Shown here in pieces: positions 3,596 through 64,000 of a DNA stretch of 64,000 nt. The position numbers and the translations under genes were made by a program. The notes beneath the pieces are model-generated. The model was not told the origin of the DNA, ran no database searches, and worked only from the letters and a program-made list of their open reading frames with translations. How positions within the stretch are numbered: the stretch's first letter is position 1; each line of letters opens with the position of its first letter. Origin of the DNA: Urechis unicinctus (lineage: Eukaryota > Annelida > Polychaeta > Xenopneusta > Urechidae); contig CM067343.1 in assembly GCA_034190875.2 (NCBI GenBank), forward strand, positions 24,511,942-24,575,941. Reading direction: 5' to 3'.

Positions 3596-3599
3596 GTAT

Positions 3600-12172: not shown

Positions 12173-12289
12173 CTAATCATTCAAAAACAAACAAAAAGGC
12201 ACTTATTTATAAAAGACAGCTGTTATAATTTACGGTGGACCAAACAATATGACAATTTTTTTTACAATTTACAAACAACACTATCAGTG

Positions 12290-16499: not shown

Positions 16500-16966
16500 A
16501 AAAGTTGTAGGTGTGTTGGTTCGCTTGTATTTTTGTAGGTATACAGCGGATCCAGACGCCGATGCTGATTACAGCACGAATACTAACGAGAGGTTCGCAT
16601 GCTATCACTTGTTCTTCAAAACAACCAGACTTTCACAAATTACCAATTTTGATTATTTCATAGCCCATCACAACCACCACGCATATATTGATTATGTGTG
16701 GTTGGTAGCCAGTAATTCTGTGCATACTGACGTAGCGATTGTTGGCTGTAGTATGTATGTAAGTGCAGCACTCCGTTCAGACGGAACCCGACCAGGGTAT
16801 CGGCGACATAAGGGGCATGTCATGTAACATTGCCTCCAGTCAGAACACGACCAGGGTAGCGGATACATACAGGGTTCATTCTGTATTACTGTCGGTGCCC
16901 AAGACGGATGGTGAAGTTATAACTTCGTGTCTGTAAATCAAGTATGTATGTATGTATGTATGTATG

Positions 16967-16998
<32 letters not shown>

Positions 16999-18373: not shown

Positions 18374-19237
18374 CTGAAAGTTAATGCATTTAGCAATCTA
18401 CGTAAGTTATTTTCAAGTCTATGAACTGTTTCAGTGTTTACAGAGCAATTATTGGTCCGTTGGCGATAACCCTGTGAGCCAGCTACAGACAGCTTATTCG
18501 TATTATGTGACAGGTAAGTCAAATTTTAACAACATTTTATCATGATAAAACTGTTTCTGAAATCACAATAATGTGCAATGAGTTCACAAGCGCACTAAAT
18601 GTAACGTTCGGCTGACAGGAACATCAGATAAAGATCTGTCTATGTCACTTTCAATCACTTACACTGTTTTAAGTATAAACTTAACGTTCCCCGTAGCTTG
18701 CTGTTGAGTTCTGATAGGGGGCATGTTTATATAAACAAAATTCTGGAATGCTGAAGCTGTTTGTAGGTGCAACAAACTAACCTGTAACATTCTATGCAAC
18801 TCTGTATTCTGATATGTTTAGTAATAAATACCTTAAACTTCACGCAAGTCGTTAATGTGAAATGTCTGCAAACATGTTGCCACACAGGATACTATGTCTG
18901 GAGCGCAATGGTATTTCTAAAGCTTGTTCGATTCTTTGATATTACCAAGAGGGTTACACACATACGCTGCTAAGTTTCTCTTGCAGATCTAAGGCAAAAC
19001 TAGGTTGTATTGGTCCGATAATTCGCTCTTTATTTGGATGAGATTTTGGTATCTAAGCTCTTCGGTAAAGTCGTGCCTGATCCGTGTTTCGAATTGAGAA
19101 CGTGAATGACTACACAATGAATTTTCCACATAGTATTAATGTTAATCGGGAAGAGTCGCTTTAAACAATACAAATCCTTATCCTTTTTAGGAACAAGTAG
19201 CAGTTATGTAGGTATGCTGTACAGATAGTTCACTTAC

Positions 19238-39436: not shown

Positions 39437-42400
39437 TTAGATATTGCCATAGGTGTGGAATCCGGACAAATAGCATTTTGCCAATTCGTGCAAAAATTTA
39501 TACTGCTCCTGAAACAAGATGTTGACACCATTATTGCAAAATATAAAGGAACTTTTAAGCTACAGCGCATCTTACGACAGTTAACATACCAGCGAACTGA
39601 TAGCCTGTGGTTGTCTGGATGTTACGTAGCGAGCTGCAAGCATCACATCCACTTCTTGCTCTGCTTTCAGTAAGTCCAGCATGAAGCAACAGGCTGCAAA
39701 GAGACCACTCCGCTCGGCCCCATCCCTGCAAAAGAATGTGGCAGAGGAATGGAAATGCCTCCAAAATACCGTCTGATATTTATGTTAGAAACTGTTAATA
39801 ATCGTGATGCATACATGCAGTGTACCACAACAGCGCCTCTAGTTTGCTTGAGTCGCCATTCTGTCACTTTGTCGATCATATCAATGAAGTCATCAGATCG
39901 AGGTGGAACTTGCTCGTGACTGGGCCACCCAAGCAACTGGAAATGACGCACGATCCGAGGCTCCTCGCTGGGCTAGAAATGTAATCCAAATTTTACTCTA
40001 ATTAAACAATATTACGGAATATGAAAGTTGGTTATAAAATGATGTTATCTTTTTAAATGAGACAAGCGGCTATAATTTTGCTAATATAAAAATGAGAGCG
40101 TTTAATAGAACAAACTTATATACTGTCGTACAAAAATGCATTGAGGCCATATTACACAATATATTTTACATTTTCAAAGTATATTGAAGCGATGTTATTA
40201 CCACTCGGCGAATTTTGGACACGTTCAATGTGCGGATGACAATGTTGGGATTCCTTGATCTTTCCGAGCTCACGTGCTCAACATGTATCGGCCCATGAGT
40301 CTTCTTTCCCAGCTCGTCATTCACTATGTACTCAGGATTTGCCTGATTCAAACACAAGCTGTTACAATAGTTTGTTATGTGATTATCATTGAATAGAAAT
40401 TTGCAGGTTCAAAATAATTTTGAAAGTCTCAGAGCCCAACACAATAACGACGCAGAGTTTTATGGAATGGCGCCAGGCAACGGATTTATGTTATTTATCT
40501 TACCCCGTTCAAAACAAACATGGGTACATTCAACCCTTAGTTTACATATTGCGATGAATAATAGAATCCACTAGGATACATCAATTGCACTTAGTTGCAA
40601 TTTCTAACAAAATATCTCACATTCGTATAGACAGCATTGATGTAGTCATCACCCTCCGAATAAGGTGTGGATAAATACAGACGATGTCTTTCAACTGAAA
40701 GCACATGCATATGCATCACATTTAAAATGTCATGTGACGTTACATGTTATTCCATCCTCTGTATATAATAAGTGGACATTGGATGTCATCTCCACGTTAG
40801 AAACACTAATTTTAATGAAGTGACCTGGGAAAACATCTGGTGACCGGCTCGTTTCCATATTGGCGGCTTTTGCGGGAGAGGTTTCTTCTTGTGGTTTGTA
40901 TTTACACATTACCTGTGCAGAAACCATCCTAAAGTTACAATACATCGAAGTTAAGCCTTGTTGTGTACACAAAGCTAATCAATCAAAAAGAACCATCACC
41001 TCATACTCTTCTTGCAGTGGGTGTTGGTTTGAATATATTGTATCATGGAACTTCTTGTCATGCTGAGCAATAAACAGAGCAATCGGTATTCCAGTTTCTC
41101 CTATGTGAGTTTCGATTCCTTCCAAGACCGCATCATACAGAAACTTGTATTGGTTCTGCCAAGTACAAATTAGCACCAATATGTACTGTTGCTTCCATTG
41201 CCTAATATGCAACTACATAAATGTGTGTGATTGAGGATGTGCTTGCGTTTACATTCATTATCGTTCTAGCTTCACAAAGTAGTACTTAAATACTATGTAT
41301 CAATCAATGCAAATGACATGCATATGATCTTTTGTACTTATGCATGTTTTTGCATGCACCTCCTCACCGCTGTTTGCACCATGTTCATCCTCTGTGTCCT
41401 CAGACGATAAACACACAAAAACACGTCGACCTGGCTTTCACGCTTGGCCTGATTCAGCAGGTAATCCAGTGCAATGTAGGTCCCTGTCCGACCAACACCA
41501 GCGCTGTGTAGTGGTGGTAACAAATTCAATATATTATTATATGAGCGATGTAAAGAAGGATTTTTCGTCAATTTGGTGCATTTTGCTTCCATTTTGTTGC
41601 TTTCTTTCATGCTATTGGGAGCAGCAAGTCATCGATAATTATTCGATAAAGGCACATGGAAGCACTCTGCAAAATTATTCAAAGAAATAGCGATCCTGCC
41701 CAGTTACTACGCATGCACATCTTTATATTTTCCTAGTATTATCATTCATTCATGTGTTGTAACGTCAACTGCGTGTCATATATCGGTTAAAATTTACGTC
41801 CCCATAAATATATATAATCGAACTTTACAAAGACCTTAAACATTGCTGGGGTCACCGTTTGGATTTATCAGATGTCATTTCTATACGGAGGGAATCGGTG
41901 GATGAATGATTTTCAAAATAAAATATCGATGATTTTTGATGAAATGCATTTTTGATGTCCAATACAATGATAGACTAGCTTCCCTTCATGAAAACTACAG
42001 TGTTATATAGACTTATAATACAGACATTGTGATGCACTGTAGGTACGTACCTGCAATGTACAATCAGCGGACCTGTTACCTCAAATGACATACGGGACAC
42101 TGTTCCTCTGAAGGCCAGCAGAGGGAAGTTATCTTCAGGGCATTTCTTGTCTTCCCATGCAAGGAAATGGAGATGGTGGACCTCTCGTTCCTCGCCCTAA
42201 AAAAAAAATTTGAAATATATTTTTCGATTGAGTACCTAATTTATATGCTACCTATGCTAATTAATTGCCTGTACCTTGTGCAAAAGACGAAGTCTCCTGT
42301 AGGAATAGTCTGCATGGACTTCGGAAAGAATCAATTCGACATTGAAAGGTCCACATGACATCCTTTTATCGTCTTTTTTGTCATCCGGCCAATACTGCTC

Positions 42401-45400
42401 ACACTTTTTCTGAATTCAGAATACATATCGTTCATGAAGATCGTGACATCAGATCCGTTATGATGCTGTTGGCTGGCCAGCGCAAGAGTTTAACAATGTC
42501 ATTCTGATGCGACTAAATCGAAATACCTTGCCTCCTTCGACCAGCTGTGTCAGCATCACTATTCGGTTAGAACGTTGTTGCCATATCATGGACCAGAACG
42601 CAACTAGAGTGTCCTTTGTTGGGCCTGACGTCATATCAATACCAAACACCAATTTGCAATAATTTTAGAATGCTATCGATCTTTGTCTTAAAGATTGTTG
42701 ACATCGATCCAATATATTGTTTGAATTCCAGTCGACCGAATCAACAGAATGCATCAGCTCACCCTGTGTGGCTATGTAGTGTTGGGCTTGCTTTGGATAT
42801 CCCTGGTCATTGAAAAACTTCGGTTTAATAATTTTATAATGTACATAAAATTACCCTCGGCAAATTGGCTTATTCAAAAACAGAAATAGTACTTACCACT
42901 ATATAACTTGCATTGATGTAGTCAGAACCGTTCAGTTCTTCGGTAGTGTCCAACTTAACACGCGTTTCGTCAACTGAAAATTGTTAGTTTGAGATAAACA
43001 AAGGTTCAATGGAAAATACGCCATATCTAATGCAGCTGGAGACCAACTCACAAGGCTGTATGTTCTTAAATCGATTCTTGATGAGATTCGCCTGTGAACG
43101 ACCAACGGTGCGAAGCTTGAAGTCAATCCCTGGTAAATCCTAGGTCCAATGCAAAATGCACCACTACATTGATTTATTCATCACTTATGTTAACGGATCA
43201 GTAGGTGTTGAGCAATGCGTTAAAATGCAAGCGATGGTATGTGTACTATTCGTACTTACATCAAACTCTCTCTCAAACCCATTCGTGATATCCTTCTTCC
43301 CGTCTTTGGTCTTCATGGCCTGAGGTATTGGTTGGGACAGTTCAGTGATATACGCCTTCAGACGAGCCAATGATATCGGGGCATTTGTACCTGACTGCAT
43401 GGATCTCTTTAGAGAGGGCGCTGAGATTTTCACCATGGCACTGATAGGTTGTGAACTTGTGGTAGGCCGTTCACTAGTCGTATCTGATGGAGCATTAAAT
43501 TCTTGTGTCGTTTGTTGTGAGGAGGTGCAGCTTGGTGCTGTTTGCAATGTCGGTGTAGTCCGCGGTTTGGCAGGCACTTCAGGCTTATTTACCGGACCCA
43601 CGACGCCTACGGGCTTGTCAATTGACGCGTCCGATACTAAACAACACAAACAAATAATAACCAAACCACAAGGATTCTCTTGAAGAACGTAGTACCTGCC
43701 TCTCCCATTTATATAACCTGACAGAAATCTTAATAACAAAGATGATTCTTACAACGATTGGTACCGGGCCGACTGTCTAACTCTTCCATTGTGGATTTTG
43801 GAGTAGATCTTTGCCGTCTGTAAAAATGACAAATAAAGCCAAAATTTGATCATTTCATGGCTGCCTACTGATGTAAGTTGCCGAATACGATAAACCATGT
43901 ACATCCATGGTCATTGGCATTGCATGTGGTAATTTTAATCATTCAATGCGTGCGTGAAGTCTCACAACGTAACCTGAGGCAGATGACAACAAAGGCGACA
44001 CCAGCGGTCAACACCAGGAAGCCTGCAATCACGGGGCCAGCTATAATGCCTACATTTGAGTTACTTTTGGAGTTTCCACCTAATCAATCAAAAACAAACA
44101 AAAGGCACTTATTTATATAAGGCAGCTGTTATAATTTACGGCGTACCAAAGAATATGTTTTGGTATGCTGGTCCCTGTGACCATATGATGACAATTTACA
44201 AACAACACTAACAAGGTATCTTGATCCCCAAATGAAATGATTGCACTCATTGTAAAAAAAATGTACCCTGATTAAACTCCGCTATGGTGGTTAGTGGGTG
44301 TGTTTTTTGCTCTGAAACAGTATTGAGTAATATAGAGCTATTATAAATGGCGTTGAAAATGACTTCAGATTGATTTCCAAATTGACGTGGGACCAAAGGA
44401 AAAAAACTATTCCCTCCATGACATGCCTATTAAGGTAACACTTCTGATCACTGATTCAGAAGGGATTAGTTCGTTATTCATAATGGGAACCATAACCTCC
44501 CAAACTCCGGCTGCATCTTGATCCCCCAAAAAAAATATTTGGTCAATTGTAAAAAAGAGAAAATATACCCTGACTATCCTCGATGGTGGTAGGTGGAGGC
44601 GTTTTCATCGTGCTCTGCTCTGAAACATTATTTATTAATGTAAGTATAATATGCGTTGAAAACAAATTTCACTTTTGTTTGATGGTCAAAATTGGCATCA
44701 TTTCCAAATCGAAGTGGGACCAATGAAAAAAAACTCTTGTCTCTTTGACATACCTATTATAGTAACACTTCTGGTTTCTGATTCAGACGTTATCTGTTCG
44801 TTATTCATCACGTGGACCTTAACATCCCAAACACCATATGTGACGTTAGTTATACTGGTGCTGATGGACGTAGCGGGATTAATAACGTCATGCGTCATCC
44901 AATCGTCTGTTGTGTTGGGTTTGTACCAAACCACGACGGAGGAGATGCTGTCACATCCAGAAGACGTCGCCTGATGAAAGACATTGTAAAGAAAGATGTT
45001 TTGTTGAAGTTGGTGGGTGAATTCACAATGCATCACATCTCCAATAGGTCAAGACGGGACTTCTTAACGACTAACCTTCCAAACTACATGCAACCTGATT
45101 GACTCCACATCGTCGGAGAATGTCAGCCTCAACACGGGATCGGGAGCTGACAACAAATCACCGGGAATGAAGCAGACCAAGAATATAAAAACATTTTGTC
45201 CACGATTCAAAGATAAGTACATAAATATTGGGCTATATATAGCGTACACTGTTTACTGTACATAGTTTAGACGCATGAAATGTTAACTTGATTAACTAAC
45301 TTCGCATTAGCTTATTATGTGTCCTTACAAACGCACGTTGTCTTGACCTCCACTTCACATGTCGGCGATGAGGATATATCGAACAGGTCGCCATGTTTTC

Positions 45401-48400
45401 TGTACACACCCACACCCAGTATGTAATGTGTGTTATAATGCAATCCTCTGATGATGGCGCTGTACTCACTCACGCCAGGTACGTGAGATAGATTGGGTCC
45501 AGACAGGTACTGAGGGTCACTACTGGCTCTGTATTGGACCTGGTAGCCATAGTACTGAGCCAGGTTTGATGCGATATCGTCATCAGGTCCCCATGTCACG
45601 TTGATATGTGTAGCGTTCACACCTTCTGTTGATGGGGTCGCATCAAATTCCACCTCATCTATATGAATAGTAACAGTTGGACAGAACATAAAACGTCTGT
45701 TGGGACTATATTCAACCTTATAACATGATCTGTGATAGATAGTACAGTACTCCTAATCAACTCATTAATGATAGATAATGTAACACACAAACTCATATAA
45801 CCTTGTCAACGGATGTAAGCAAACCAATGAATTGTGTGAATTTATTTAATTATACCATATTGTTCCAATTCTTAGAGCTATGTTGTACTCACAGATGAGC
45901 GTGTCACATTTCCCACCAATATACCAGGGTTGACATCCGTCAGGACATAGTCCAGTCACGTGATCACATGTCATGTAACCTCCTTTACAGTGAATATCAG
46001 AGCAGGAAGACATACAGTTGATCCCGTAACGTCCTGCATCACAAGCTGAAGCAAATCTACAGGATAAGCCGATCTAAGATACAAAGGTTTTTCCCCAATG
46101 AGATATGAAGCTGGGTAGAATCTTACGTTAACTGAATATTTAAGCACAACACATCAAGCACATATCACGCAATAACCCGTTTAGTTGCATTCGTAGATTT
46201 AACTAACTTAGACATTGGGGTGGTTCAGATCCAGAGCAATTGCTGCATCCAACCAAGTCATCGCAGTCCGTGAGACACCTCGAGCAATCTAGGATAAAAA
46301 GCAATACATGTTCGTAAATGCAAATTATAAAATGCACTGAAAGAGTTGTAACATTAGATGTGACCAATAATACTCTTTAATAACATTAACATTTTCCTTA
46401 ACAGAGATTGCTTGATCTAAAAATCAACAATCTTTAACAACTCACCAACTGTGATAACTTCATAGCCCATCACAACCACCTCGCATATATTGATAATGTG
46501 TGGGTCGCGACCGCCGACTCTCTGCATACTGACGTAGCGACCGATGGTTATAGAGGTACATGTCAGTGTAACGCTGCCTCCAGCCGGAACACTACCAGGG
46601 TAGTAGAGGCATAAGGGGTTCATATTGATATCACTGCTGTTGCCAACATGGATGGAGAAGTTTCCTGTACGGTCTGCGTCTAAAACAAATCATGTATGTG
46701 TATGTATGTATGTATGTATGTATGTATGTATGTATGTATGTATGTATGTATGTATGTATGTATGTATGTATGTATGTATGTATGTATGTATGTATGTATG
46801 TATGTATGTATGTATGTATGTATGTATGTATGTATGTATGTATGTATGTATGTATGTATGTATGTATGTATGTATGTATGTATGTATGTATGTATGTATG
46901 TATGTATGTATGTATGTATGTATGTATGTATGTATGTATGTATGTATGTATGTATGTATGTATGTATGTATGTATGTATGTGTAAAGAATCTGATGCAAT
47001 CCCTTTTCCGATGCACATCCATGCAAAGATTATTATGCACCAACTTACTCTGTTCATCTTTTCGATTGAATATAGTTATGCTGTAAATTTGATGATTTTC
47101 TTGAAGGTCCACGCTCCACCAAGCTATTTTTCCACCTACAGCTGTATGGGCGCAGGTTGCCTCGTGTTCGCTCTCTGTTGACGGTAGCTTGCCGTCTACA
47201 GAATGATTAGCATACCACTTGCCATACACTCCTTTCTGGTTTACCACTTTGTGGAGGGCTACATTTCCTGATACCAGACCCATATAATGTATATTGATTG
47301 ACAGTCGAGCGCACACTGCTACTTAAATATGCAATTTAAACAAAGAAGGGCTATTGTGTCACCGATTCTACATCCGGGTCCTCGCCAGTCAAACCTGGTC
47401 TCGTTACCAACAGGTCGTGGTTGCCCATATCTGCATCCATTAGGACATGAGCCAGTCTGGTTGTCACATGGAACATTGTCCACGCAGTTACAAGGAAATA
47501 CACAGTCACTTGAGCCCCCGTAAATGCACTCCGTTCCTGAAAGATAATGCAGACTATCAGCGCTCACAACATCAAGTATCACTCTCATAATGTGATGGGT
47601 GTATCTGCGTAAGTCATCTTCAAACATATTAACTGTTTCAGTTTTTGCAGTAAGTTCACTGAAACATAACAATAAATGGATTCCAACCCCTTAACGATCG
47701 TTCTATGCTAGCTCGGTGTTAAGATTCATTACCCTGTGGGCCAACTTCAGGCAGCTTACCAACATTCTGTGACGAGAAGTTTTAATTTCAAAACAATTCT
47801 ATTGTGATAAAGTGATTAAGTCCCAGAGATAATTCACAAGTGCATTAAATAATACTTCTTGTGTCAGGGACTCTAGATTTAGGTCTTCGATAGTCACTTT
47901 CAAGTCACGGATAGTGTTTGATTGTTTAAACTTTGTTATCTGCTTACACCGTGTCATAGTCGACAGCTGGCAGTGGCGTCGCGTTCTGTTAGGGGCTTTA
48001 TTATTTAAACGAAAGTCAAAAATAGCTATTCTAGAATACTTTAACTGTTTCGGAAGTGCAACAAACTTACCTGTAATATTCTATTCAAATCTGTACTATG
48101 ATATGGATTATAATTAATACGTCAAGCTTTACACATGTCAATAACCTGAAATGTCTGCAAATAATAACTGAGTACTTAGACAGATTATTATGTCTAGAAC
48201 GCAATGGTATTTCTTAAACTGATAGATTCCTTGATTCTACGAGAGGGTTGCACTTATGTTAATTTACTCTTGCTGTTTTAAAACGTAACTAGATACTACG
48301 GGTTTGATAATTCACTCTTTTTGGGGTTAATCTATCGGTATCTTAGCTCTTTTACAAATTCGTTCCTGATCTGTGATGCGCAATGTGAGTGCGAATGAAG

Positions 48401-48627
48401 ACACAATTACAGAACGCTTTAGATAATAAATCGATTAAGGACAAATATATGTTCCGCCTGGTATTATAGTTAATCGGGAAGAGCCGCTTTGATGATACAA
48501 GATTGGTTTATTTAGGGACAGGTATCAGTTATAGATATTCGGTATAGAAAGTTCACTAACCTCCCGCCAGATGGTTCTGTAACACGAATATAGCGACAAT
48601 ATAGCATGTAACGTTGACGGCAGCCAT
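39437..48627 (-). CDS. Receptor-type tyrosine phosphatase, unit 3: EGF-FTP lectin-EGF-FN3-FN3-TM-D1-(truncated D2)
   Basis: Twenty-six exons join in frame, 1,212 aa: 48627-48561, 47536-47363, 47267-47049, 46679-46446, 46288-46208, 46045-45893, 45658-45329, 45146-45076, 44970-44754, 44079-43974, 43817-43753, 43636-43260, 43139-43052, 42973-42897, 42802-42763, 42624-42527, 42409-42275, 42196-42051, 41503-41368, 41155-41000, 40912-40825, 40694-40621, 40342-40202, 39972-39815, 39725-39590, 39508-39437. Order: signal 1-22, EGF to 80, FTP lectin 81-231 ([28 protein letters not shown]), Cys-rich to 258, EGF to 309, two FN3 to 515, TM about 526-549, D1 about 699-985, D2 about 1020-1212. D1 keeps KNRF, WED858-860, HC892SAGVGR and QTANQY. 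D2 has WPS and HCMDGAER but lacks one 45-codon exon. Family role: it would bind glycans or ligands outside the cell and dephosphorylate phosphotyrosine inside. This is the only D1 in the window with its cysteine. Confidence 0.9.
40440..40545 (-). pseudogene. Scar of a deleted D2 exon
   Basis: In units 1 and 2 a 135-bp exon (8429-8295 and 25872-25738), encoding the [17 protein letters not shown] segment, lies here. In unit 3 only the last two codons AACGGG, the GTAAGAT donor and the downstream intron remain (about 40500-40513). The acceptor, the rest of the exon and adjoining intron are gone. Flanking intron sequence aligns on both sides. Confidence 0.85.
44220..44750 (-). repeat. Intronic partial copy of the second FN3 exon
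   Basis: Between the real FN3b exon (44970-44754) and the TM exon (44079-43974) lies a second 3' half of that exon at about 44530-44440. It is open ([13 protein letters not shown]) with a GCATGT donor, preceded by the same intron sequence. It is equivalent to the tandem units at 12290-12930. Skipping it leaves the main transcript in frame. Confidence 0.65.
46691..46981. repeat. (TATG)n satellite in the FTP intron
   Basis: About 290 bp of perfect TATG between the two lectin exons of phosphatase unit 3. It begins only about 10 bp upstream of the 46679 exon acceptor and could influence splicing. Confidence 0.97.
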
Positions 48628-48760
48628 AGCTGGAATGGCGACTGTTCACGATAGCTGTTCGCTGTAACGTAACCGTTACTTCCTGGTTATAACTGTACAC
48701 AATTGCCAAGTGAAACGAATCAGTTCAATATGCGATGGGAAAAGTTTTATAAGCCCATCT
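48628..48760 (-). promoter_or_regulatory. Putative promoter of phosphatase unit 3
   Basis: Upstream of the start ATG at 48627 the minus strand holds TTATAAAA at about 48744-48752, 120 bp before the ATG. A block resembling ACAATTGCCAAGTGAAA at about 48700 is conserved before other leaders (19370, 33890, 62720). This suggests a duplicated core promoter. The TATA-like box is not shared by all copies. Confidence 0.3.
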
Positions 48761-51060
48761 AGTTTATGACACAAGACTTTAAATGGGTATTTGTCATTTG
48801 GAAAATCTTTTCTGAATCGATCAATATCCACTTGTTATCATATTGACATAACCACTAGTGTTTGCTTTTCTTTCGACAACGACCATACCCCTGTTGAGTA
48901 AAGTTAACGGCATTGGAATTCATGTCTCAACCTCAAGTGATCTTGAAGTGTGGTGTCATGAGAATGCGTCCATCCACATTGCAAGAAGCGCAGCGTGGTG
49001 GACAATTGACCAACGCAATACTCCCGAGCGCCCCAGTTACTGTTGTTTTGGTTTATATCTAAAACATGGTACATTATTAAGAAACCGGCTAGTGCAAAAA
49101 TCCATCAAATAGGGAGAGTGTGCCTCCAGTAGGCCACCTATTTAAAAGTGAACACTAGCCAAAATGATGGCCACCTTTCACGCCTATATCTTGCTAAATC
49201 TTTTGGCTGAGTAGTCAAATTCTCGTGGTATTGACATCAGATCATGTTTTCATCTCTTGTTATTGTGGTATCATGCGATGTTTCACTTGAACAAGTACTA
49301 CCGGTTATGTGAAAAAACAGACATCCAGTAACCACTTGTCAATAGTTATGTGGCGTGCGTGGCCCTTAAACGATGATGAGTGTTGTATAGTGATATCTAA
49401 ATGACTCTGGAACCACTTAAATCAATAAGTTTTCCGCAGGATTTCGATTTAATTGTCTGAATCTAGAAAGTGGCGTAATCGTTAACTGCGTTGCCTTTTG
49501 ACTCGCAGGGATGAAATCCTGACTGGTTACTCGTGACTCGTGACGGTCCCATCTCTAAAAGGAGATGCTCCCAACCTATATCGTGCATGACCTTCGTCCA
49601 AGTGTGAATCTCGCAGACCTGTCAGGGCAGCAGGTTGGTGCCAAGTTAGCGCTGGCACTTAAGGGGAGCTATTCATTGCTCACAATCTTTCTCATCCTCC
49701 ACGGTCACGATATCACTTCGTTTTTCAAATTGACGTAATACCCAATTATTATTATAACCATTACATATGCAGTCCAAATATCAGGTCAAGAATTAGCCAT
49801 GGTGATATTGATCGGCGGGTGAATAGTTTTCCTGAACCCAGGTCATACACCAGGCCTTTATGTGAAGTGTTTGTTAGTGTGCTGCAGGTGGTGATTCAGA
49901 TCTCACAAATGACAAACGTGTTCTAATGCGCTGTGTAATGGATCGTTGAAATTCGAAGTGTTGGCTTCTTAATCATTAGTGTTTCAATATGTGCAAGTGA
50001 CATGATAAATATTAGCTGTGGACATATGTGTAATATTTATGCTATGATAAGTTTGGGTGGGGTTGAATTGTTGTAGTAGGTATGTGTTCTACAAAATGGC
50101 ATTCCCGTAACATATATGGGTACTAAAATGTTGCTCTCTGACTGTTGATTGCTTATCAAAACGCTCTGTGTGATTTATATTGAACAACAAACGGATGCAA
50201 GGGTACAAAATAAAGCGCCTCTGTTTCAACATAGCGTAGAAATAGGTACATTCTGTCGATGTCAGTATGTACAATCAAAAAGATGCATGCTGAAAGGTGA
50301 CCCCTTGAATATCGCATAACATTTTCAAAAAAGCAGATTGCGTATATTAATAAGCGCACACACAGGTTCGATTGAATAATATATAAATAAGTCATTAATT
50401 TTCCCAATCAGTACAATGGCAGTTTATCTGAATGTTATTTATTCATAGGTATGTTGTAATCAATATGGGCTGTATAGTCTAGCACTCTAATAAAAAATGG
50501 TCAATAGCTTTGGCAAAACTCCTAGTCTTAATTACTTGTCACAATGTTATCTGCCTAGTAACAACTAGGGTTATCACATTGTTTAATACGCTGGCCGTTG
50601 TATCACTCAGGTCTCGTCCGTGCGGAGGTCTTCATATTGACACTCTGCGACAGCGGCGATTCGCGCCAGTATGCCACAACAGCTTTTCAGTATAGTTACA
50701 AATAGTTATAGATATTGATGTCTTAAGCGTAAACGCATATTGAAACCGACCCTTAATCCTTCGTAAATGTCAGTGACCTGGTCAGTTGCTGGTGAATTTA
50801 CTGAAGTTGGATGGTTCGCCTATGAAGTAACTATTGCAGACTGCCAAAATAGTACAACAAATGGCAATACCAGACGGCTGTAAGCCTCATTGCAGTGAAG
50901 GTTATCTTTAAACTGAAAGCAAATAGCGCATAGTGACTCAAACATTATTTATTGCATTATTGTGAAAATGCAAATGAACTGCACCATCTCTCACAATGTT
51001 TAATGCACAAAGTTTTTGCGTACGGATGCAAACATGACGCACTACATTTCGTGTTTACTC
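48761..51060. other. Intergenic; no gene recognised apart from a SINE-like stretch
   Basis: About 48780-49450 shares blocks with 33900-34200, 62750-63400 and 19430-19900 (the upstream regions of other leaders). 49990-50400 resembles the 23.0-23.2 and 37.1-37.4 kb flanks. No coding exon is seen. Confidence 0.45.
49466..49720 (+). mobile_element. Possible tRNA-derived SINE
   Basis: The segment starts with a tRNA-like A-box region (GTGGCGTAATCGTTAACTGC) and a degenerate B-box region (GGGATGAAATCCTGACTGG). A body of about 170 bp follows, containing GTGTGAATCTCGCAGACCTG. Homologous copies are not seen elsewhere in the window, so this is only suggestive. Confidence 0.35.
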
Positions 51061-51115
51061 CAAAAGCTGAACCGAATATACATGATATATCATGCTGGGT
51101 AGAAGTTTACGTTAA

Positions 51116-51630
51116 AGAGACTGTTCAGCCCCATATTTGGAACAAGGTTTTGGCAACCGCACCTTGGAAACCAAAAATGTTAGGTTTTCAGACTTTCAGT
51201 CGCTAAGCACGCTGTGGTCTCGGAAAAAATATCCTTACTTCGGCTGTCGCCATTTATGCTGTCGGACATTGCCCTTCCTGCTTGTCGGTCTAATGTGTGC
51301 ACAATGATGCCCACATCTTGAATGACGAATACAGATCGATAGCGAGGTAAATTCAGAGCGCGTTATGATTAACAGCTAACATTCGTGTGGTTCATGGTTT
51401 TAGGGAGGCACCGTTGTCGATGGAACAACATAACTGAATAAAACAGATTTCCACAGTAGATCATGAATCTTTCCAGTCAAATAATAATGTTAAAAACTTA
51501 TCAACCTAATTTCCATCAAGGAAACTTTGCGGCATAAATTAGAAGATGTTATTACTTATGTCTGCGTTAATCGTAGTAATGTAATAACGAGATGATCCCA
51601 GATCGCCTTACACGGGGCTGAACAGTCTCT
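51116..51630. mobile_element. 515-bp inverted-repeat element with TTAA target duplication
   Basis: Perfect 17-bp terminal inverted repeats, AGAGACTGTTCAGCCCC, are bounded by TTAA at 51112-51115 and 51631-51634. The flanks match the receptor intron at about 46110-46160, where a single TTAA joins the same two sequences without the insert. TTAA duplication is characteristic of piggyBac-type transposition. No transposase is visible, so it is non-autonomous. Confidence 0.8.
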
Positions 51631-51760
51631 TTAACTGAATATTTAAGGCCAACAAAGTATGCACATGTCAAACATAAATATGCACTGCTGCGTTCGAGAG
51701 GTGCATGTCAGTGTAGCACCCACTCCAGCCGTAACACCAAAGAGTTTATAGCTTCGCATT
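51631..51760 (-). pseudogene. Fragment of the second FTP exon
   Basis: About 51690-51745 matches the lectin exon around 46545-46610 (AGAGGTGCATGTCAGTGTA and TCCAGCCG.AACACC). It is out of frame and truncated. With the intron match at 51060-51115 it shows another dead receptor copy here. Confidence 0.55.
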
Positions 51761-51779
51761 ACGCCCTCACTCGAGTTTT

Positions 51780-52500
51780 TCGCACGAGGAAATATATGAA
51801 GACGCCACCTGTTAGCCGAAGAGTTATTGTCATAGCGTCTTGTCATAGCGTCTCTTAAAACCACGTGCAATGCTCTGTTTCCTTTGGAGCTGTAGTCGCT
51901 TCGACCAAACAGATGACTCCATATCTTTAACAGCCGCCGAGCCCCAAGATTGTAGAAAAACAGTCTCTTGGCTTTTGTTGATTTCATGGTATCGTCGTCT
52001 GATATCGGGGGTGTCTTTCGAGTAATTTCATAATCGTCACGCAGCTCAGCGTAGCTATAAACTTATCGCTCGAGACCTTCACATCCCCCTGACATGCCAA
52101 AAATGATTATGTCGACCCCAGTTAAGTTCCCTCGCTTCAGACATTTATTCACAATCTAAAACTTCCATCCACAGTGCGGACATGAAAGATCGAGGATTGT
52201 TAACTGCGCGGACGCTGTTAGCGGCGAACTGTTTTCCATAATTTATTTAGTTGAGTACTTGCTATTTTCGCTATTCATAAGCCTATTGTGCGACGTGTTT
52301 TGGCACTGGCAAGGCTCCGTGAAAATACATTTTTCCCGATCTCAACAATCACAGTGACGTCAGCCCAGTATTCCAATGTGCTTTTGTTTGTGTCACGGTA
52401 GAGCCACCTTGCGATTGCAATGTATTATAATTAGGGAAGCGATCGCCACAGAGCCACTCGAAGTAAGCCCTCTTAGCGGAGCTATAAACTGTTCGATTTA
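51780..52500. repeat. Partial copy of the leader-intron duplication
   Basis: Aligns with 61790-62510 and 32970-33660 but ends before the leader exon, so no signal peptide is present. No coding content. Confidence 0.7.
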
Positions 52501-52740
52501 TCCTCAATGTGATCGCTCTGTTCATGAAGAAGCGACGGCCGTAATGTTATGTCATAAAGTCTCCCTCAGATGATCATTATGGTCACACTATATGTCGTAA
52601 TGTCTCAGTAATGTCAAGCATAACCGGATCATTTCTTTATCTGAGAACATATTCTGTTCACCAACTAAAGTGTTTATCTTCTTTCATGAACAATATCCAC
52701 ATTTAATGGGATATTTTAAACTGACAAAAATGTATTCAAG
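52495..52740. repeat. Dispersed repeat, partner at 59525-59765
   Basis: About 240 bp of closely similar sequence (shared ATTTATCCTCAATGTGATC and GGGATATTTTAAACT ends). No coding potential and no clear inverted termini. Confidence 0.75.
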
Positions 52741-54635
52741 CTTGACTATGGATTTTGTAATGGTATTTTTTACTAGTAAAGTATATACTAGGGGCTTTAA
52801 TCTCTCTCTTGGTTACGATGCTTACACACTTTTGTTTGGTTGGTGTTTTCTTACGTGGAACGGACCTCCAGAATTAGAACATTGATTGCATTTGAAATCT
52901 TGCAAACTAGTCCCCTGGAAACATATACAAAGTTATTCAAGGCAGTCCAGGTCCCACTTGACAAATGCGTTAGTGAGCTTGTCTTGTTGCCAGTACGACG
53001 AAACATAACCACAAACGCTGGAGATATTGTGCGCATCACGGCTCTGCAATTGATTTATCGTCCAATGTGTGCTGATTTAGTGTAGAGGGGTAGGTGTGAG
53101 TTCTAGACGACGAATCTTGTGACAGCTTGCGACGACTAACGTTCCTATAGGAACCTTACTGAATCATATAAAACAGACCAGCAAGTTCTGGCTGCACAAA
53201 GTGTCAGTAAAAGAATCTTCAATTGAGAGTGAGGATTTACTAGGCACAAACCTATGGGGTTTGAATCTGCAGCTTACCTTCACCTTTGATGAATAAATTG
53301 TAAGCGCAGATAACAAGCTGCAAAGGTTCACATATTTACTGAAAGGGAACGAGTTTCGAGACAATATAATGAAGCTTTACACAAAGAACTGAGAGGCTGG
53401 AAGTCACATAAAAAAGTGTTGACAGCTACGCACTCAAATTAACTAAATCAGCGAAACAATCCGTCGGTTACCCAATAAACAACCAACACTAGCTGTTCAA
53501 AGTGCCCGTTATCACTACAGCTAGCATCTTTACAGTGATCAGAAATCAAATGGTGCTGACCGGTGCGACATAAGCAACCCCTTCTCTAGCCGCATTAGGC
53601 AAAGACGGTGTGTATGAGTTGGTCGATAAACATGGTCGAGTGTTGGTACACTGAATGGTATTACAGAATGTTCTGTTAGCTCAGCCTTCTCCTTAAAACA
53701 AGAGAGTGCCACATGGAACATATATGGATATTGGTGACTGCAGTTGCTGGGGTTCCTTTTATAATTGCAAAAGAGGTTTGATGATGAATTGGGAGGCGGG
53801 TCAGCTCATTCCGGTCTTTAACGCGGAGATACACTCGAAGGTAGAAATTTACTACCGTCATGTAAATCATAGTTTAATACTGACAAGTTGACAGCACTGG
53901 TCTTAAGACCAAAGCTAAGGGGGCGCCATAACACAACATGTGGATACCGCATTTCGCATCTGGGCTCTCTGACAGTTGATAACTCGCGCTTATAAACACT
54001 GAAGCAATGGGTAAGCCTGTCACCTGAATAATGCCAGTTGGGAAGCTAAGCACACCAGTTCGCTGAATGTTGAGTCTACTAAAAATTTCGCTCTGTCTAA
54101 AAAGATAGGGAAAAGGAAAAAGTGAACCGTTGTCATACTTTAAGTAAGAGTGCGGTGGTTAGTGGTGATACTCGGAAGAAAAAGAAAACATGTGTTCAAT
54201 AGAAAACACTCAGAGGGTGCACTATTCATTGTATTCATAATAACATATAATTAGAGAAACAAACGTATCATTCATATCGCCGCAACAGTGGATACATGGA
54301 TTAGTATATGCTCAACATGCTACTGGCTGGCAGATGCCCCTGCTACCGCGAAGTGGTTAAAAGAATCATATAGAAATTCCTTCTGGGGCATGCAAACCTG
54401 GGTAAAGCGAATGTTGATCTTGCTTTGGTGTTATAATACGTTACCACTTGACACAATCATACAGAATATTATTTACTATATGACAAGTAGTCACTGGTTT
54501 CCCAAATACACTAGACAACAATCACATTCTATAGATACATTTGCATATTGATACAGATTAAACTCCTTACTACATCTGTAGTCAGATACATATCTTATGT
54601 TTGTCAACAAAAGATTTTGCAATAGGCTGCTGTTA
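52741..54635. other. No gene recognised; includes the 3' flank of the tail-type receptor
   Basis: Short open frames occur on both strands but none has domain or splice support. From about 54430 to 54635 it resembles 31225-31420, the duplicated 3' untranslated/flank region of the tail-type receptor. Confidence 0.5.
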
Positions 54636-57600
54636 TTACATTGGTTCATACTCCGTCTCTGTCGTAGCCTGTCCCTCTTCCATGTGAAGCTCGTCATAGA
54701 GGCTCTGGGGTAGAGCAGCGAGCGGCCCCTGCATGCGGGATAGATTAATGATATCACAACAATCCCTAACAGACAGTAACCTCCGAAGATAGCTTGTCAT
54801 TTTTCAACTTACCACTAAGCCTTCGTAATTATCCACGCCAGGCTCAGGTTCGAATGTCTTTCCAGATGATGCCGGTGCGTTGGTTCGCTCATGATGTAAT
54901 TTATCAAGTGAACAATAGATCAAGACGCTGATAATGATAACAGCAGCAATACCAAAGAGAGCCGCAAATGTTATCACCAGGGGATGGTCGGCGTCGCTTG
55001 AGTCTATAACATATATTAAATGATAAACACATGCATTCATAGTTTATGTATCTATATGGATTGAACAATATTTCCTCATTTGTGCTAATTGTGCTATTCA
55101 CAGAACACTTTACCTTCGTTTGATTGATCATGATTCGTTTCCATGGCGATTGTTGATACCGTAGTTGAATCTGAAAATGGCATTCAATACCTTGATCCAA
55201 AACGAAATCAACAGATCACTGGACGGATGTGCAATCTCCAAAAGAACAAAACACTTGCCTGCCACAGAACCTAGCAACAAATGTACCTGAAAGCTGAACT
55301 GTATGTGTCTGTGATTCATAGAAGTGGAGTTCTTTGTTTACAATTCGAATCTTAACCTCGAGAATATTGTCTTCTATGCTGCCAGATGACCTGAGCCAGA
55401 CACTAGTGGAAGTCACGGGATTGATGACGTCATATGCCATCCACTCCTTATTTCCCTTGCCTCGGTATAGCAGTTGGATCGAGGAAATGTAGGCACACGT
55501 GGAATGCGCAGTCTATATGACCACCATTAATGCCGTTAGCATGGTTATACGTTTTACACAAGAAAATAGAAAAATTAGTTAATAATGAACTCATCTGGCT
55601 GGTATGCACTGGCAGCAAGCAATAAAATAACATGCCTTCCATTCCACATATAAGGTGATAGACTTAGCGTCCGATGTATACACCAGATTAACTATTGTTA
55701 CACGCTCTGGTGCTGCACAGAACGAGACAAACATACTATCAATGAACCAGTATTTGATATTCAATATTTCGAAATGATTTGATTGGTAAACAATTATACA
55801 TCACCAACACACGGCGTGGGAACCTCCACTTCGCGTGGCGCCCATGGCGACACCTCAAACAGATCGCCATGTTGTCGGTATATATTTACTCTTAGCGTGT
55901 ACTGTGTGTTGTGGTGCAAGCCGCTGATGATGGCGCTGTAAGCAGTCACACCAAGTACGTGAGATACATTTGGTCCAGGCAGAAACCCAGAGTCATTACT
56001 AGCTTTGTACTGGACCTGATAACCATAGTACTGAGCCATGTCTGATGCGATGTTGGCATCAGGTCTCCACGTCACTTGAATTTGCGTTACATTGACGAGA
56101 ACAGCTGTAATGGTTGCATCAAATGACTGCTGATCTACAACAGACAGAATGAAACACAATATCGAGTCGATCCTAGCCACGCCATTCCGTTAACTGTGAC
56201 AATAAATTAGTAGTCTATCCTTGGGTTTATTTCAAATTATGTGAGAGCAATCAATTACATAAAACATTGATATCCTAATGTAGCCAATATGCAGGTATAT
56301 AGTGTTTTAGGTCAATTTCACTTTGTGATTGTGCGCATTCCAATGATTGAATCAAGTACTACACAATTCATAGTACTCACTGATGTGCGTGTCACATTTA
56401 TCTCCAATGTACCAGTCTTGACATCCGTCAGGGCATTCTCCGGTCACGTGATCACATGTCACGTAACCTCCTGTGCAGTAATGATCAGTACAGGAAGACA
56501 TACAGTTGATCCCGTAACGTCCAGCATCACAACCTATGACGAATGTACAGGATAATTACAAATGGTCTTTATCCAAATGAAATATGATGCTGGGTAGAAG
56601 CTTACGCTAACTAAATATTTCAACACAACAAATCAGGCATATGTGGCTGATTAATCCGTTCTATCACGTGCGTTGATTAACTAACTTAGGCACTGGGGTG
56701 GTTTAGATCCAGAGCATCTGCTGCACCCAACCAAGTCGTCGCAGTCAGCGAGACACCTCGAGCAATCTAGGATAACGCAATACATGAAAGATTTAAAACT
56801 TTAGATGTGTCAGTTTGCTCACAGATACTTCCCAAAGAGAGATTACTTGCATTTAAACAACAATGACCCTGGCACAACTCACCAACTTGAATCACCTCAT
56901 AGCCCATCACCACAACTTCACATATATTGATAATGTCTGGTTGGAAGCCACCAATTCTCTGAATACTGACATAGCGACCGATGGTTGTAGAGGTGCATGT
57001 CAATGTAACATTGCCTGCCTGCGGAACACGACCAGGGTAGTAGAGACATAAGGGGTTCATATTGATATCACTCCTGTTGCCAACATTAGGCTCAACAATT
57101 ACATGAATAAACATGATCATGACACATGAGCAACATCCTTTTGCCTACAGCGCAGTCCACATCTCTAAATCTGCACTTATAAGGGTCCAAAATTATCTAC
57201 TGTGGTTAAATACAAGGTAGCGAATCTCATCCTTTTTGACTAACGTGTTGATTTCAACACGATTGACCACGACTCTTCCCTTAACAGGATGAATATGACC
57301 CTTCCTATCTATTACCAAGCCCTTGAAAACTGTCTGTCAAAGATCTCTTCCTGGCTGATTGAAAGCGAGCTCATACAAAACAGAGATACTGCTCGAGGAA
57401 ACAGTTTAGCAACTTTTCTATGTCATCCTTTTCAAGCGTTATACAAATATCACTATATAATCATTAGTATATTATGATGTATTATTAGGCACGTACGTAC
57501 ACACGCATGCATGCATGCAAGTATGGGTGGTTGAATGTATTTATGTATACATCGATGTATTCATGCATATGTGTGAGTGTATGTTTATGTGTATGCGGGA

Positions 57601-59045
57601 ATAAATTTATGTAAATAAACCTGTCTAATCTGTTCGCAAAATAAAGACAGTGGAGATTCTGATGCCATCCCATATCTGATACAGACCACAAGAAGATTGT
57701 TTTGCACAAACTTACTTTGTTTATCCAAGCGATTGATAATAGTTATGTTGTTTATACGGTAATGTCCCTGAAGGTCCACGCTCCACCAAGCGTTCCCTCC
57801 ACCAACAGCTGTATGGGAGCAGGTTGCCTCGTGTTCGCTCTCTGATGACGGTAGCTTGCCATCAACAGAGTGGTTAGCATACCACTTGTTAAACACTCCT
57901 TTCTGGTTGACGACTTTGTGGAGAGCTACATTTCCTGATACCAGACCCATTTAATGAGTATTGATCATCAAGCACACACCGTTCTTTTAATTTACAAATC
58001 TGACAAACAAAGGGTATAATGTGTCACCGATTCTACATCCGGGTCCTTGCCAGTCAAACCTGGTCACGTTACCAGCAGGTCGTGGTTGCCCATCTCTACA
58101 TCCATCAGGACACACGCCTGTCTTGCTGTCACATGGAACGTTGTCTACGCAGTTACAAGGAAATACACAGTCACTTGAGCCCCCAAAGGTACATGCTGTG
58201 ACGGAACAGTAAGACATTGAGCGTTCATTATGCTATACCTCACTCATCGTTGTCATGTTATTCGCGTCGCTTTCTTCGTGTTAGCTGCTGTTGTACAATG
58301 ATATGTCCCATGCTGTTTGTCAATGATATCGCTGTCAAGCTTCATATTTAGATGACAATTGCACAATTAGTTTGTGCACTGGATTGCCATTTTGCTAGTA
58401 CAATGCAACCTTGTTCAGCAATCATCTACCCCACAGTGACGTTTGCTCGGGCTGCCTTTTGATAAATTCAGGCATCAAAGGGGCCCACTGTTGGCCCTTT
58501 AGCCATTGACTTTGTTTAGCGATAGTAAGGTCTATCCTATTTTAATTCAACTGCTTGGATCAGGAATTGTATACTGCAAGAATGCTTTGATGCAATCATC
58601 AGTTAATTTGTAAGCTTTGAATTAATCGGTTCATGTGTATCGCAATTTACTGCGTTCAATTGATATCCTGATCTTATTGCTTTATCAATTATAGGTTCAG
58701 ACAAATGCAGACTTGTTCAGGTATATATACAGTATGCAAAGATACCCCTCACTTATACGTGCATTTTAGGTTTGGGACATCAATGAATTGTGCTCCTCCG
58801 GGTATAAAGTGAACCCACAACGATTACACTACTCCTATGACAGTTTTGATAGTTCGCGTTGTATTGCAATACTTCCTGTTTTCTATATGGTCAAGCAGAG
58901 CACAAATGACACCACAATTACTAGACGACAAGAATTCAGCCTTGCTCAAAATGGTATGGTCAAAGAAAGTTACCTTACCTCCTACAAGATATCCGTGTAA
59001 CACAAGTGTCGTAACAAGGCAGCATATAACGTCAACGGTGGCCAT
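54636..59045 (-). CDS. Tail-type receptor: EGF-FTP lectin-EGF-FN3-FN3-TM with tyrosine-motif tail
   Basis: Twelve exons join in frame, 638 aa: 59045-58979, 58195-58028, 57934-57716, 57137-56883, 56766-56686, 56533-56381, 56134-55805, 55712-55636, 55512-55287, 55170-55114, 55003-54813, 54728-54636. Leader MATVDVICCLVTTLVLHGYL, then EGF (CNCVDNVPC) to 78, FTP lectin 79-236 ([28 protein letters not shown]), Cys-rich to 263, EGF to 314, two FN3-like domains to 525, stem, TM about 553-575. The 60-odd-residue cytoplasmic tail has no enzyme domain but contains Y604EGL, Y619DEL and Y635EPM. The ectodomain order equals that of the phosphatase at 39.4-48.6 kb. The start of exon 4 (57137) is the phase-compatible acceptor, but its first residues diverge from the paralogue. 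The linker exon uses a GC donor. Confidence 0.88.
57280..57600 (+). mobile_element. 3' end of a LINE (antisense, in the FTP intron)
   Basis: Plus strand encodes CLSKISSWLIESELI and RDTARGNS, similar to the segment downstream of the reverse transcriptase fragment at 61556-61216 on the other strand. It ends in GTACGTAC/GCATGCATG and then a degenerate TATG/TGTA tail. It lies in the intron between the lectin exons of the tail-type receptor. Confidence 0.6.
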
Positions 59046-60745: not shown

Positions 60746-60746
60746 A

Positions 60747-61215
60747 TCGACACACACATACATGCATACATACATACATACATACATACATACATACATA
60801 CATACATACATACATACATACATACATACATACATACATACATACATACATACATACATACATACATACATACATACAGACATACATACATACATACATA
60901 CATACACACACACATACATACATACATACATACATACATACATACATACATACATACACATACATACATACATACATACATACATACATACATACACACA
61001 TACATACATACATACATACATACATACATACATACATACATACATACATACATACATACATACATACATACATACATACATACATACATACATACATACA
61101 TACATACATACATACATACATACATACATACATACATACATACATACATACATACATACATACATACATACATACATACATACATACATACATACATGCA
61201 TGCATGCGTACGTAC
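60747..61215. repeat. (CATA)n satellite attached to a LINE 3' end
   Basis: About 470 bp of CATA on plus (TATG on minus) with CACA and CAGA interruptions. On the minus strand it directly follows the LINE fragment through a GTACGTACG/GCATGCATG transition. Confidence 0.95.
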
Positions 61216-61789: not shown

Positions 61790-64000
61790 TGAGGAAATAT
61801 GCGAAGACGCCATCTGTTAGCTGAAGCGTATTGACAAAGCGTCTTGTCATAGCGTCTTGTCATAGCGTCTCATAAAACCACGTGGAATAATTCTCTGTTT
61901 AAGTTGGAGCTGTAGTCGCCTACACCAATCAGATGACTCAATATCTTAAACAGCCGGCGAGCCCTAAGACGTTAGATCAACAGTCCCATGTCCTTTTGTT
62001 GACTTCATGGTATCGTTGCCTGGGGACGGGGTGTCTTTCGTGTAATTTCTTAATTGTCACGCAGCTCAGCGTGGCTATCAACTCTTTACTCGAGACCTTC
62101 ACTTGCCCCTGACATGCCAGAAAATGTTAATGTCAACCCCAGGCGAGTAGCCTCACTCAAGACAGTAATTAACAGTCTAAAACTTCCATCCACAGTGCAG
62201 ACATGACCGATCGTGGATAGTAAACAGCGTGGACGCTGTAAGATAAGTGTACCCCAGACCGGGTTATTTATCAAGTTGACATTTATTTCATAGTGTACTT
62301 GTTATCTTCGCGATTCATAAGCCTATAGTTTGGGCAGCTGCTAGGCTCTCCACTCTCATCAATCGCAGTGATGTCAGCCCAGTATACCCATGTGCTTTTG
62401 TTTGTGTCATGAAAGCGCCGCCTTATGATTGCACTGTATAATAATTAGGGAAGCGATCACCACAGAGCCACTCGAAGTTAGCCCTTTTGGCGTAGCTCTA
62501 AACACTCTGATAAAATCCTGGTGCTTTTAGGGTCAAGTAGCTGTCAAGAAGGTATGCCGTACAGAAAGTTCACTTACCTCCGGCCAGAGAGTTCTGTAAC
62601 AAGAAAATAGCGACAATGTAGCATATAACGGCAGCCATAATTGGCATGACGACTGTTTGCGAAAGCTGCTTGCTGTATAACATCAAACTACTTACCGGTT
62701 AGAACAGCAAATAATTGTCAAGTACAAAAAATCGGTTATTTGAAAGAAACTTTTTGTATAGATCAATAGCCACTTGTTATACTAGCCACGCTACTGCTAG
62801 TGTTTGTGGTTCTTTTCACAACCACCATATCCCTGTTGAGTAAAGAAAACGCCGTAGGAATACATTGATCGACCTCAAGTGATCGTAAAGCATGGTATGC
62901 TGAGAATGCGTCCACCTGCTTTGTTGGAAGCGCACTGTGGTGGACAATTGGCCCGAGCGCCTCCGTTCCTGTTGTTTGCTTTATATCTAAAACATAGTTG
63001 ATATGCAAAGAAACCGAATAGAACCGTTTAGTGCAATAATCGATCCAAGCGTCAAATATGGCGGGTTTGCCTCCAGTAGGCCAATAATTCATAAGTTAAC
63101 GTAAGTCAAAATAATTGAATTGTTTAAGATGGCCGCAATTCTTAATTTTTTTTTCCATCTTGCTGTATCTTTTAAATGGGTGGGCAAATTCACATGATAT
63201 TGACATCTATTCATGTTTCTAACTCGTGTTATTGTGGCATCATGCGATATTTCACTTGAACGAGTACGACCGTTTATGCTTAAGTAAGAGTGATTCCAAA
63301 ACTGATAGTCAATAGTTATGTGGCGTGCATGGCCTTAAAACGACGGATAGTGTTGTACTCTGATGTCTAAATAAATCGTATTGAACAATCTTCAGAAAAA
63401 TAGATTGAACTTTATGGCCGAGTTGCGGAAAACCTGACCCTGTTAAGTTATGCTAACTTCATACCAGGATCAAATATTACATGTACTGCTTGAAGATCAC
63501 TTTTCTTCGTTGACAGGGTTCTGATATCGAAGTATAGTCAATAATCGGGTCTATATAAGACTTCACCTTTAAGCCACTCAAAGTGAATGTCTACACAGTA
63601 ATGGGATACCAAGACTTCAATATTTTCTCTGCCAGAGGTCAACTGCTAGCCGGCAATCGTGTTACTGAGGGGTATTTTGAAAATCAATAACGACCGTCCT
63701 TGAATGATTGACCTGACTCTGAAATCACCTTCTGGAATCAATGTTTTCTTCAGCATTTCGATTTAAAGGTCCAGATTCATATACGTGTTATATAGGACCC
63801 TCATTTGTAGACATTAACTATGCCTGGCGTTTAAATTTTTCATAAATTTCATAATTCCTTGATACAGAGCAGATGAATTAATACATGTATTAGAAAGAAT
63901 ATCTTTAATAGCACGTAAACTATAACAGATCTTAGATTTTGCTGTTGTGTATCGGCTATCGCACGGTATTTCTCTCTTTCAACAGAAGGATCCCATGCAC
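61790..64000. repeat. Segmental duplication block (partner 32960-34860)
   Basis: Carries intron 1, a leader exon and the upstream region in the same order as 32960-34860 and continues to the window end, where the CAACAGAA minisatellite starts. Confidence 0.8.
62578..62638 (-). CDS. Signal-peptide first exon, orphan in this window
   Basis: Encodes MAAVICYIVAIFLLQNSLAG with a phase-1 GTAAGT donor, two codons shorter than its paralogues. No EGF or lectin exon follows before the next leader at 59045. In principle it is phase-compatible with EGF1 at 58195 as an alternative first exon of the tail-type receptor. Otherwise it is a leftover of a deleted copy. Confidence 0.6.

Follow-up and report, generated by a model that had tools for sequence, protein, structure and literature searches.

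Most of what is known about paired receptors comes from the immune systems of vertebrates, in which the inhibitory member of a pair relies on a borrowed phosphatase. Siglec-11 and Siglec-16 form one published pair, in which gene conversion has acted on the ectodomain region (PMC5701461). Drosophila Draper-I and Draper-II are splice forms with opposing tails, the former with an immunoreceptor tyrosine-based activation motif (ITAM) and the latter with an immunoreceptor tyrosine-based inhibitory motif (ITIM) and the tyrosine phosphatase Corkscrew (PMC4503800). The Botryllus fester family and fester co-receptors (FF/FcoR) are encoded by side-by-side gene pairs whose tyrosine motifs are of the ITIM, hemITAM, or core type (PMC12065747), and PTPRU is a receptor with a catalytically dead first phosphatase domain (D1) that still binds the substrates of its active relatives (PMC7320164). 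In this study, we analyzed a 64,000-nucleotide stretch of Urechis unicinctus DNA (contig CM067343.1, positions 24,511,942 to 24,575,941; hereafter the window), which contains two receptor genes, A and B, with a common ectodomain on different cytoplasmic ends: tandem tyrosine phosphatase domains (D1 and D2) in gene A and a short tail with tyrosine motifs in gene B. We propose that A and B form an opposed-signaling pair in a tandem paired-receptor array of an annelid-like animal, a tentative reading of the sequence that we hold a little short of probable.

An exon-by-exon rebuild confirmed that the two genes have the same ectodomain order (leader, EGF, two-exon lectin, Cys-rich, EGF, FN3, and FN3), as the initial annotation had stated, and the mostly phase-1 exon borders that it reported were found at 9 of 11 introns in gene B and at 10 of the first 11 in gene A. 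The model of gene B has 12 exons (59045-54636) encoding 638 amino acid residues, and that of gene A has 28 exons (48627-39437) encoding 1243 residues, all 27 introns being bounded by AG/GT; in both genes the second FN3 is spread over two exons. Pfam assigned F5_F8_type_C_2 (9e-12) and fn3 (8.4e-8) to gene B, and F5_F8_type_C_2 (7.2e-13) and Y_phosphatase (5.6e-112, in two stretches) to gene A, whose fn3 match was just below the curated cut-off (22.9 vs 25); the EGF and second FN3 assignments in both genes have no Pfam match and rest on the Cys pattern and homology. By sequence, the lectin domain of each gene has the F-type fold, matching FBP32 (3cqo; 1.3e-28 for A and 2.2e-16 for B) and eel lectin (1k12; 3.3e-9 and 1.5e-7, respectively). 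The coordinates of all features are listed in Table 1.

Table 1. Receptor genes, copies, and remnants in the window (TM, transmembrane segment).
Feature	Coordinates	Strand	Basis
Gene B: leader, EGF, F-type lectin domain (2 exons), Cys, EGF, FN3, FN3, stalk, TM, short tail	54636..59045	-	exon model, Pfam
Gene B, TM and tail exons	54636..55003	-	sequence, pattern, shuffle control
Gene B, start of second lectin exon, non-homologous to gene A	57087..57137	-	blastn A vs B, protein alignment
Additional open leader exon (phase-1 GT donor) upstream of B, perhaps an alternative first exon	62578..62638	-	
Gene A: ectodomain order of B, two stalk exons, TM, juxtamembrane, D1, D2 minus one exon	39437..48627	-	exon model, Pfam
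Gene A, D1	41000..43139	-	sequence, exon model, PDB matches
Gene A, linker and D2 region	39437..40912	-	sequence, exon model
A2: EGF2 to D2 of A type, open, splice sites retained, without lectin exons	24590..31087	-	
A3: one stalk exon, TM, juxtamembrane, D1, D2 of A type, exons open	7123..12669	-	
A3 leader exon	15644-15710	-	sequence
B' pseudogene: FN3s, TM, tail of B type	31411..32912	-	tblastn, sequence
B' leader exon	33751-33817	-	tblastn, sequence
B'' remnant: broken EGF1 and lectin exons	16500..18386	-	tblastn, sequence
B'' leader exon	19238-19304	-	tblastn, sequence

The phosphatase half of gene A matched PDB structures of PTPRS, LAR, PTPRA, and CD45. As in a classical tandem receptor tyrosine phosphatase, gene A has a TM segment and a D1 with an intact HCX5R catalytic motif (catalytic Cys codon TGC at 42055-42053) and the aspartate of the WPD loop, which here reads WED; the KNRY motif reads KNRF. 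The tail of gene B consists of 64 residues, and the three tyrosine motifs described initially were recovered as YEGL, YDEL, and a C-terminal YEPM. The stretch YEGL-x11-YDEL fits the ITAM pattern YxxL/I-x6-12-YxxL/I, which appeared in 0.46% of 20000 composition shuffles, and inspection of the tail sequence revealed no NPxY. An EMI domain marks the CED-1/Draper/MEGF10 family, and the head of Draper is EGF-rich and is not known to have an F-type lectin domain or FN3. Membership of gene B in this family was rejected, because its Pfam matches up to E 0.1 include no EMI domain and its tail has no NPxY.

The ectodomains of the two linked genes, which lie 6 kb apart, are homologous and closely similar (60% protein identity of B to the A head overall), and the similarity is concentrated distally. 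Summed over EGF1, the first lectin exon (FTPa), the second (FTPb, compared over its homologous part alone), Cys, and EGF2, 705 of 825 aligned bases were identical between A and B, and the counts were 240 of 330 in FN1 and 115 of 217 in FN2b. Within types, FN1 was identical at 284 of 330 bases (A-A2) and 298 of 329 (B-B'), and FN2b at 178 of 214 and 171 of 205, respectively. Three distal introns of A and B could also be aligned (264/355 bases). The synonymous divergence (dS) between A and B was 0.39 (bootstrap 0.28-0.53) in the distal exons, 0.70 in FN1, and 1.63 in FN2 (FN1 and FN2 together, bootstrap 0.72-1.43), and the order distal < FN3 was reversed in 1 of 2000 bootstrap resamplings. The head is therefore homogenized and the rest diverged, as in paired receptors. 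Purifying selection alone was rejected as the cause of the head similarity, because the greater distal likeness extends to synonymous sites and introns. Given the 705 of 825 identical distal bases, the sharing between A and B is not due to chance; most likely, the distal half was exchanged between the A and B types after their split, and distal homogenization over old FN3 domains reads as the gene-conversion mark of vertebrate paired receptors.

Head and tail can also be explained without opposition if B is an endocytic lectin scavenger receptor whose tail carries Yxx-hydrophobic AP-2 sorting signals, and if A, an ordinary adhesion phosphatase, owes the shared head to recombination in the array. 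Yxx-hydrophobic is an endocytic motif, and a hydrophobic residue indeed stands at +3 of all three tail tyrosines in B. In addition, homogenization of the head could have arisen as a side effect of unequal exchange between tandem copies. However, the exact ITAM spacing and the acidic residues that follow each tyrosine argue against sorting signals, and the proximal domains of the same array were not homogenized between types. We regard this explanation as improbable, if a serious contender.

The paired-receptor reading also concerns the rest of the array. All receptor exons are on the minus strand of the window, which has the character of animal DNA, with short introns and numerous CATA repeats. 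By tblastn with A and B and by sequence reading, three tandem modules were recognized along this strand, namely, B-A, B'-A2, and B''-A3, beyond which tblastn found broken fragments at 5366-485. B' carries stops and a frame break, and a stop codon stands where B has YEPM; its tail, the sole other copy of the B tail, retains YEGL and YDEL. In B'', blastn recovered the vestige of a B-type TM exon (83 bases, 69.9%, E 2e-12). A non-coding stretch between B and A (~52200-51790) matches one upstream of B' (~33390-32960) at 78% over 381 bases, which is a further trace of the repeated module.

The phosphatase copies A2 and A3 have open frames and altered catalytic sites. In D1, the codon for the catalytic Cys has become AGC (Ser) in A2 (27518-27516) and GGC (Gly) in A3 (10160-10158). 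As in pseudophosphatases, an essential residue is lost and the rest of the domain is conserved. As a control, the first-domain catalytic Cys was present in 118 of the best 120 of the 321 relatives found by a search with the gene A protein (115 by pattern and 3 by eye), and the other 2 were unreadable. Open frames were found in the A2 exons that were located, from EGF2 onward, and in the TM-D2 exons of A3; these exons have AG acceptors, GT donors, and length changes that all stay in frame, and the D2e donor is 3 nucleotides further on in both copies. Two stalk exons of A2 were missed by the automated location, one of which was read by eye and then checked. Neither copy has a complete head. A3 has also lost its stop codon, its frame continuing for six residues; most of FN2 and one stalk exon are gone as well, and its FN2b and second stalk exon are broken. 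Introns included, the D2 halves of A2 and A3 (25872-24590 and 8429-7123) were identical at 1170 of 1282 aligned bases with 7 gaps; the D1 halves were less alike (1663 of 2122 bases, 35 gaps). The likeness of the D2 halves probably stems from a recent exchange.

Among the best 120 of the 321 relatives of gene A, F5/8-type and phosphatase domains occur together in 19 according to the Pfam column, mostly in molluscs. The top match, P0004 (LSAT2_024929 of the tubeworm Lamellibrachia satsuma), showed 39% identity over 44% of A. Like gene A, it has EGF, an F-type lectin domain, Cys-rich, EGF, FN3, TM, and two phosphatase domains; unlike gene A, it has one FN3, and its gene model includes extra domains inside the lectin. 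P0019 (Paralvinella palmiformis), read by eye, resembles gene A from the second lectin half onward and has two FN3s. These annelid phosphatases differ from A in that their D2 retains an exon missing in A, and we know of no short-tailed partner for either of them. In a tree built from the D1s of 35 selected rows, P0004 and P0019 were nearest to the D1s of the window (supports 90/88 and 92/78), on long branches, for which the tree program warned that joins may be false; this placement suggests that the window is annelid-like. The search with the gene B protein found 3 relatives, and a profile search, covering proteins of limited length that share words with the query, gave 7 proteins, 5 of them molluscan. 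P0001 (Haliotis), whose lectin-EGF head is accompanied by a short tail containing YIEL-x12-YDVI, and P0127 fit the ITAM pattern, and P0126 resembles a cut phosphatase gene model. P0127, from the limpet Patella caerulea, has EGF repeats, a C-terminal tyrosine kinase domain, and its ITAM-pattern match at the C-terminus, indicating that mollusc EGF-repeat heads also sit on a kinase.

Several observations weigh against an opposed pair. No annelid short-tailed relative was present among the 7 proteins of the B profile search, and the molluscan P0124, P0125, and P0126 do not fit the ITAM pattern. In gene A, D2 retains HCMDGAERSG, with WPS in place of WPD, and is incomplete compared with a classical tandem receptor tyrosine phosphatase: a 135-nucleotide exon present in A2 (25872-25738) and A3 (8429-8295) is absent, with no trace by blastn and both flanks aligning. 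Private changes were counted with the D1h exon cut to 35 codons in A, A2, and A3, the D2c exon, absent from A, excluded, and stop codons skipped. On the A branch they were near neutral in D2 (15 synonymous and 30 nonsynonymous), which fits the missing exon, and their ratio differed from that in its own D1 (p 0.010). The tandem phosphatase end described at first therefore holds for D1 with its intact motif and falls short for D2. Exon 8 of gene B needs a GC donor, and its second lectin exon has an acceptor without a pyrimidine tract and opens with about 51 nucleotides (57137-57087) that have no counterpart in A, homology returning at 57086 (blastn). In view of the D2 exon loss, the non-homologous lectin start, and the GC donor, the description of both genes as intact was too strong, and intactness is a model.

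The strict F-type fucose motif, given as HX24RXDX4(R/K) (PMC5712786), was found by the pattern check in neither A nor B. Gene A has the variant H-x27-RxD-x5-R and gene B H-x27-RxD-x2-R, in which the basic residue is too near and none stands at the expected last place; the non-homologous stretch in B replaces the part that bears the last basic residue of the fucose-site region in A. Fucose recognition was accordingly rejected as a firm claim, and the recognition of fucosylated glycans suggested by the initial annotation is weak. A further point against the pair is that B' and B'' are broken, and only one B copy may work.

These defects could mean that a birth-and-death array is in decay, with A as the sole working gene, B, A2, and A3 becoming pseudogenes, and no paired function. 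The broken B', B'', and fragments at 485-5366 are in line with decay, as are the odd lectin exon and GC donor of B, the absence of lectin exons and catalytic Cys from A2 and A3, and the losses of stop codon, stalk exon, and FN2 in A3. The D1 of both copies also seems under weaker constraint, with 16 synonymous and 18 nonsynonymous private changes in A2 and 32 and 40 in A3, compared with 20 and 11 in A, but the difference between A and A2/A3 was not significant (p 0.068). About 29% of changes were synonymous in a neutral simulation, and the excess over this persists in all three (p 0.00007 for A, 0.036 for A2, and 0.006 for A3). Thus, the D1s of A2 and A3 look less constrained than that of A, yet non-neutral over their history. 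The open exons of A2 and A3, with in-frame changes only, also speak against decay, since 51 gap openings separate the introns of the two copies over 2367 aligned bases; long-dead pseudogenes are therefore unlikely, although recent death of A2 and A3 is possible. For B, decay is countered by a nonsynonymous-to-synonymous ratio (dN/dS) of 0.28 in the distal exons versus A. The comparison behind this ratio was confined to exons of equal length, apart from D1h, which was trimmed to 35 codons where the lengths did not match, and stop codons were skipped; in the separate dS and bootstrap analysis, FN1 of B-B' was counted as two segments, one before and one after the frame break. Taken together, we consider decay of the whole array rather unlikely.

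Six leader exons (at 62638, 59045, 48627, 33817, 19304, and 15710) are open, each with a phase-1 GT donor. The flank of the extra leader upstream of B (63377-62508) aligns to the upstream region of A at 70-73% (blastn), and this leader with its flank is nearer to the leader region of A than is the own leader of B at 59045, which makes the 5' end of B uncertain; gene B may start at 62638. A single transcription unit with A and B as its alternative ends, one leader and head being joined by splicing to the short tail or to the phosphatase, would agree with these leaders, with the nearly uniform phase 1 of the ectodomain introns, which makes the exons of neighboring units splice-compatible, and with the incomplete heads of A2 and A3. 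It is very unlikely, however, since each of the two genes comes with a full head and a leader, the two lying 6 kb from each other, and the upstream flank of A is of the same type as those of the leaders at 62638 and 19304. Between B and the extra leader, a minus-strand frame at 60654-61550 reads GVPQGYGLVPLLFVIYM and adjoins a long CATA repeat; we take it to resemble a piece of a reverse transcriptase from a non-LTR (long terminal repeat) element. Part of an intron in B (57613-57351) matches 61101-61365, largely as microsatellite, and a transposon source of the odd lectin exon is not claimed.

We therefore return to A and B as an opposed pair. The analogy with paired receptors drawn initially is supported by a homogenized head on different cytoplasmic ends, the ITAM pattern of B, and the intact D1 motif of A, and is not supported by the strict fucose motif; overall, the paired-receptor reading is better supported than when it was first made. 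The near-identical heads would probably read the same or overlapping ligands. A Src-family kinase would then phosphorylate the ITAM-like tyrosines of B, a tandem-SH2 kinase would be recruited, and the C-terminal YEPM could bind phosphoinositide 3-kinase. Gene A would carry D1 to the same contact and remove the phosphates of B or of the kinases, so that the A:B ratio would set a threshold. A2 and A3, if expressed, would hold on to these phosphotyrosines, leave them unhydrolyzed, and dampen A. The fullest form of this proposal is an array with three outputs, namely, an ITAM-type end (B), an active phosphatase (A), and Cys-less substrate traps (A2 with Ser and A3 with Gly), in which gene conversion would keep the ligand exons of A and B alike and the balance would tune a spiralian recognition threshold; we think this quite unlikely in its entirety. 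If the pair is real, a spiralian lineage would have evolved the balance logic from a different part list, with a phosphatase-bearing partner, and the array would offer a way into how annelids and molluscs recognize symbionts or tell self from non-self. Lectin-type phosphatase receptors are common in these two groups, as judged from the 19 of the best 120 relatives. The dead-phosphatase copies A2 and A3 yield a simple prediction testable in cells.

Draper-I and Draper-II resemble A and B in placing activating and inhibitory ends on one invertebrate receptor, with inhibition through a tyrosine phosphatase. Unlike A and B, they are splice variants of one gene, the phosphatase is recruited instead of built in, and Draper has an NPXY motif (PMC4503800), which the B tail lacks. 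Botryllus FF/FcoR are likewise adjacent paired invertebrate receptor genes and are discussed in terms of a natural killer-like balance; they differ in having Ig and sushi ectodomains and in being proposed to heterodimerize, and the available part of the account describes no phosphatase domain. Siglec-11/16 and CEACAM1/3 share with A and B near-identical ligand-binding exons on opposite cytoplasmic ends (PMC5701461, PMC5112662), but their inhibitory partner acts by ITIM and their ectodomains are of other kinds, whereas here the partner would itself be a receptor phosphatase. The dead D1 of PTPRU is comparable to the role proposed for A2 and A3, in that it holds phosphotyrosine substrates; in PTPRU, however, the catalytic cysteine is still present and activity was lost through changes in loops, whereas A2 and A3 have lost the cysteine itself. 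No pair with a phosphatase domain built into the opposing partner was found in the literature searched, mostly at the level of listings. The initial statement that no system of this design had been described was nevertheless too strong, as Draper-I/Draper-II and Botryllus FF/FcoR follow a similar logic. We accordingly rate the A/B system as a variant of an already published invertebrate opposed-receptor logic, in which the repeated B-A module, the homogenized distal exons, and the open phosphatase frames of A2 and A3 without the catalytic Cys are new.

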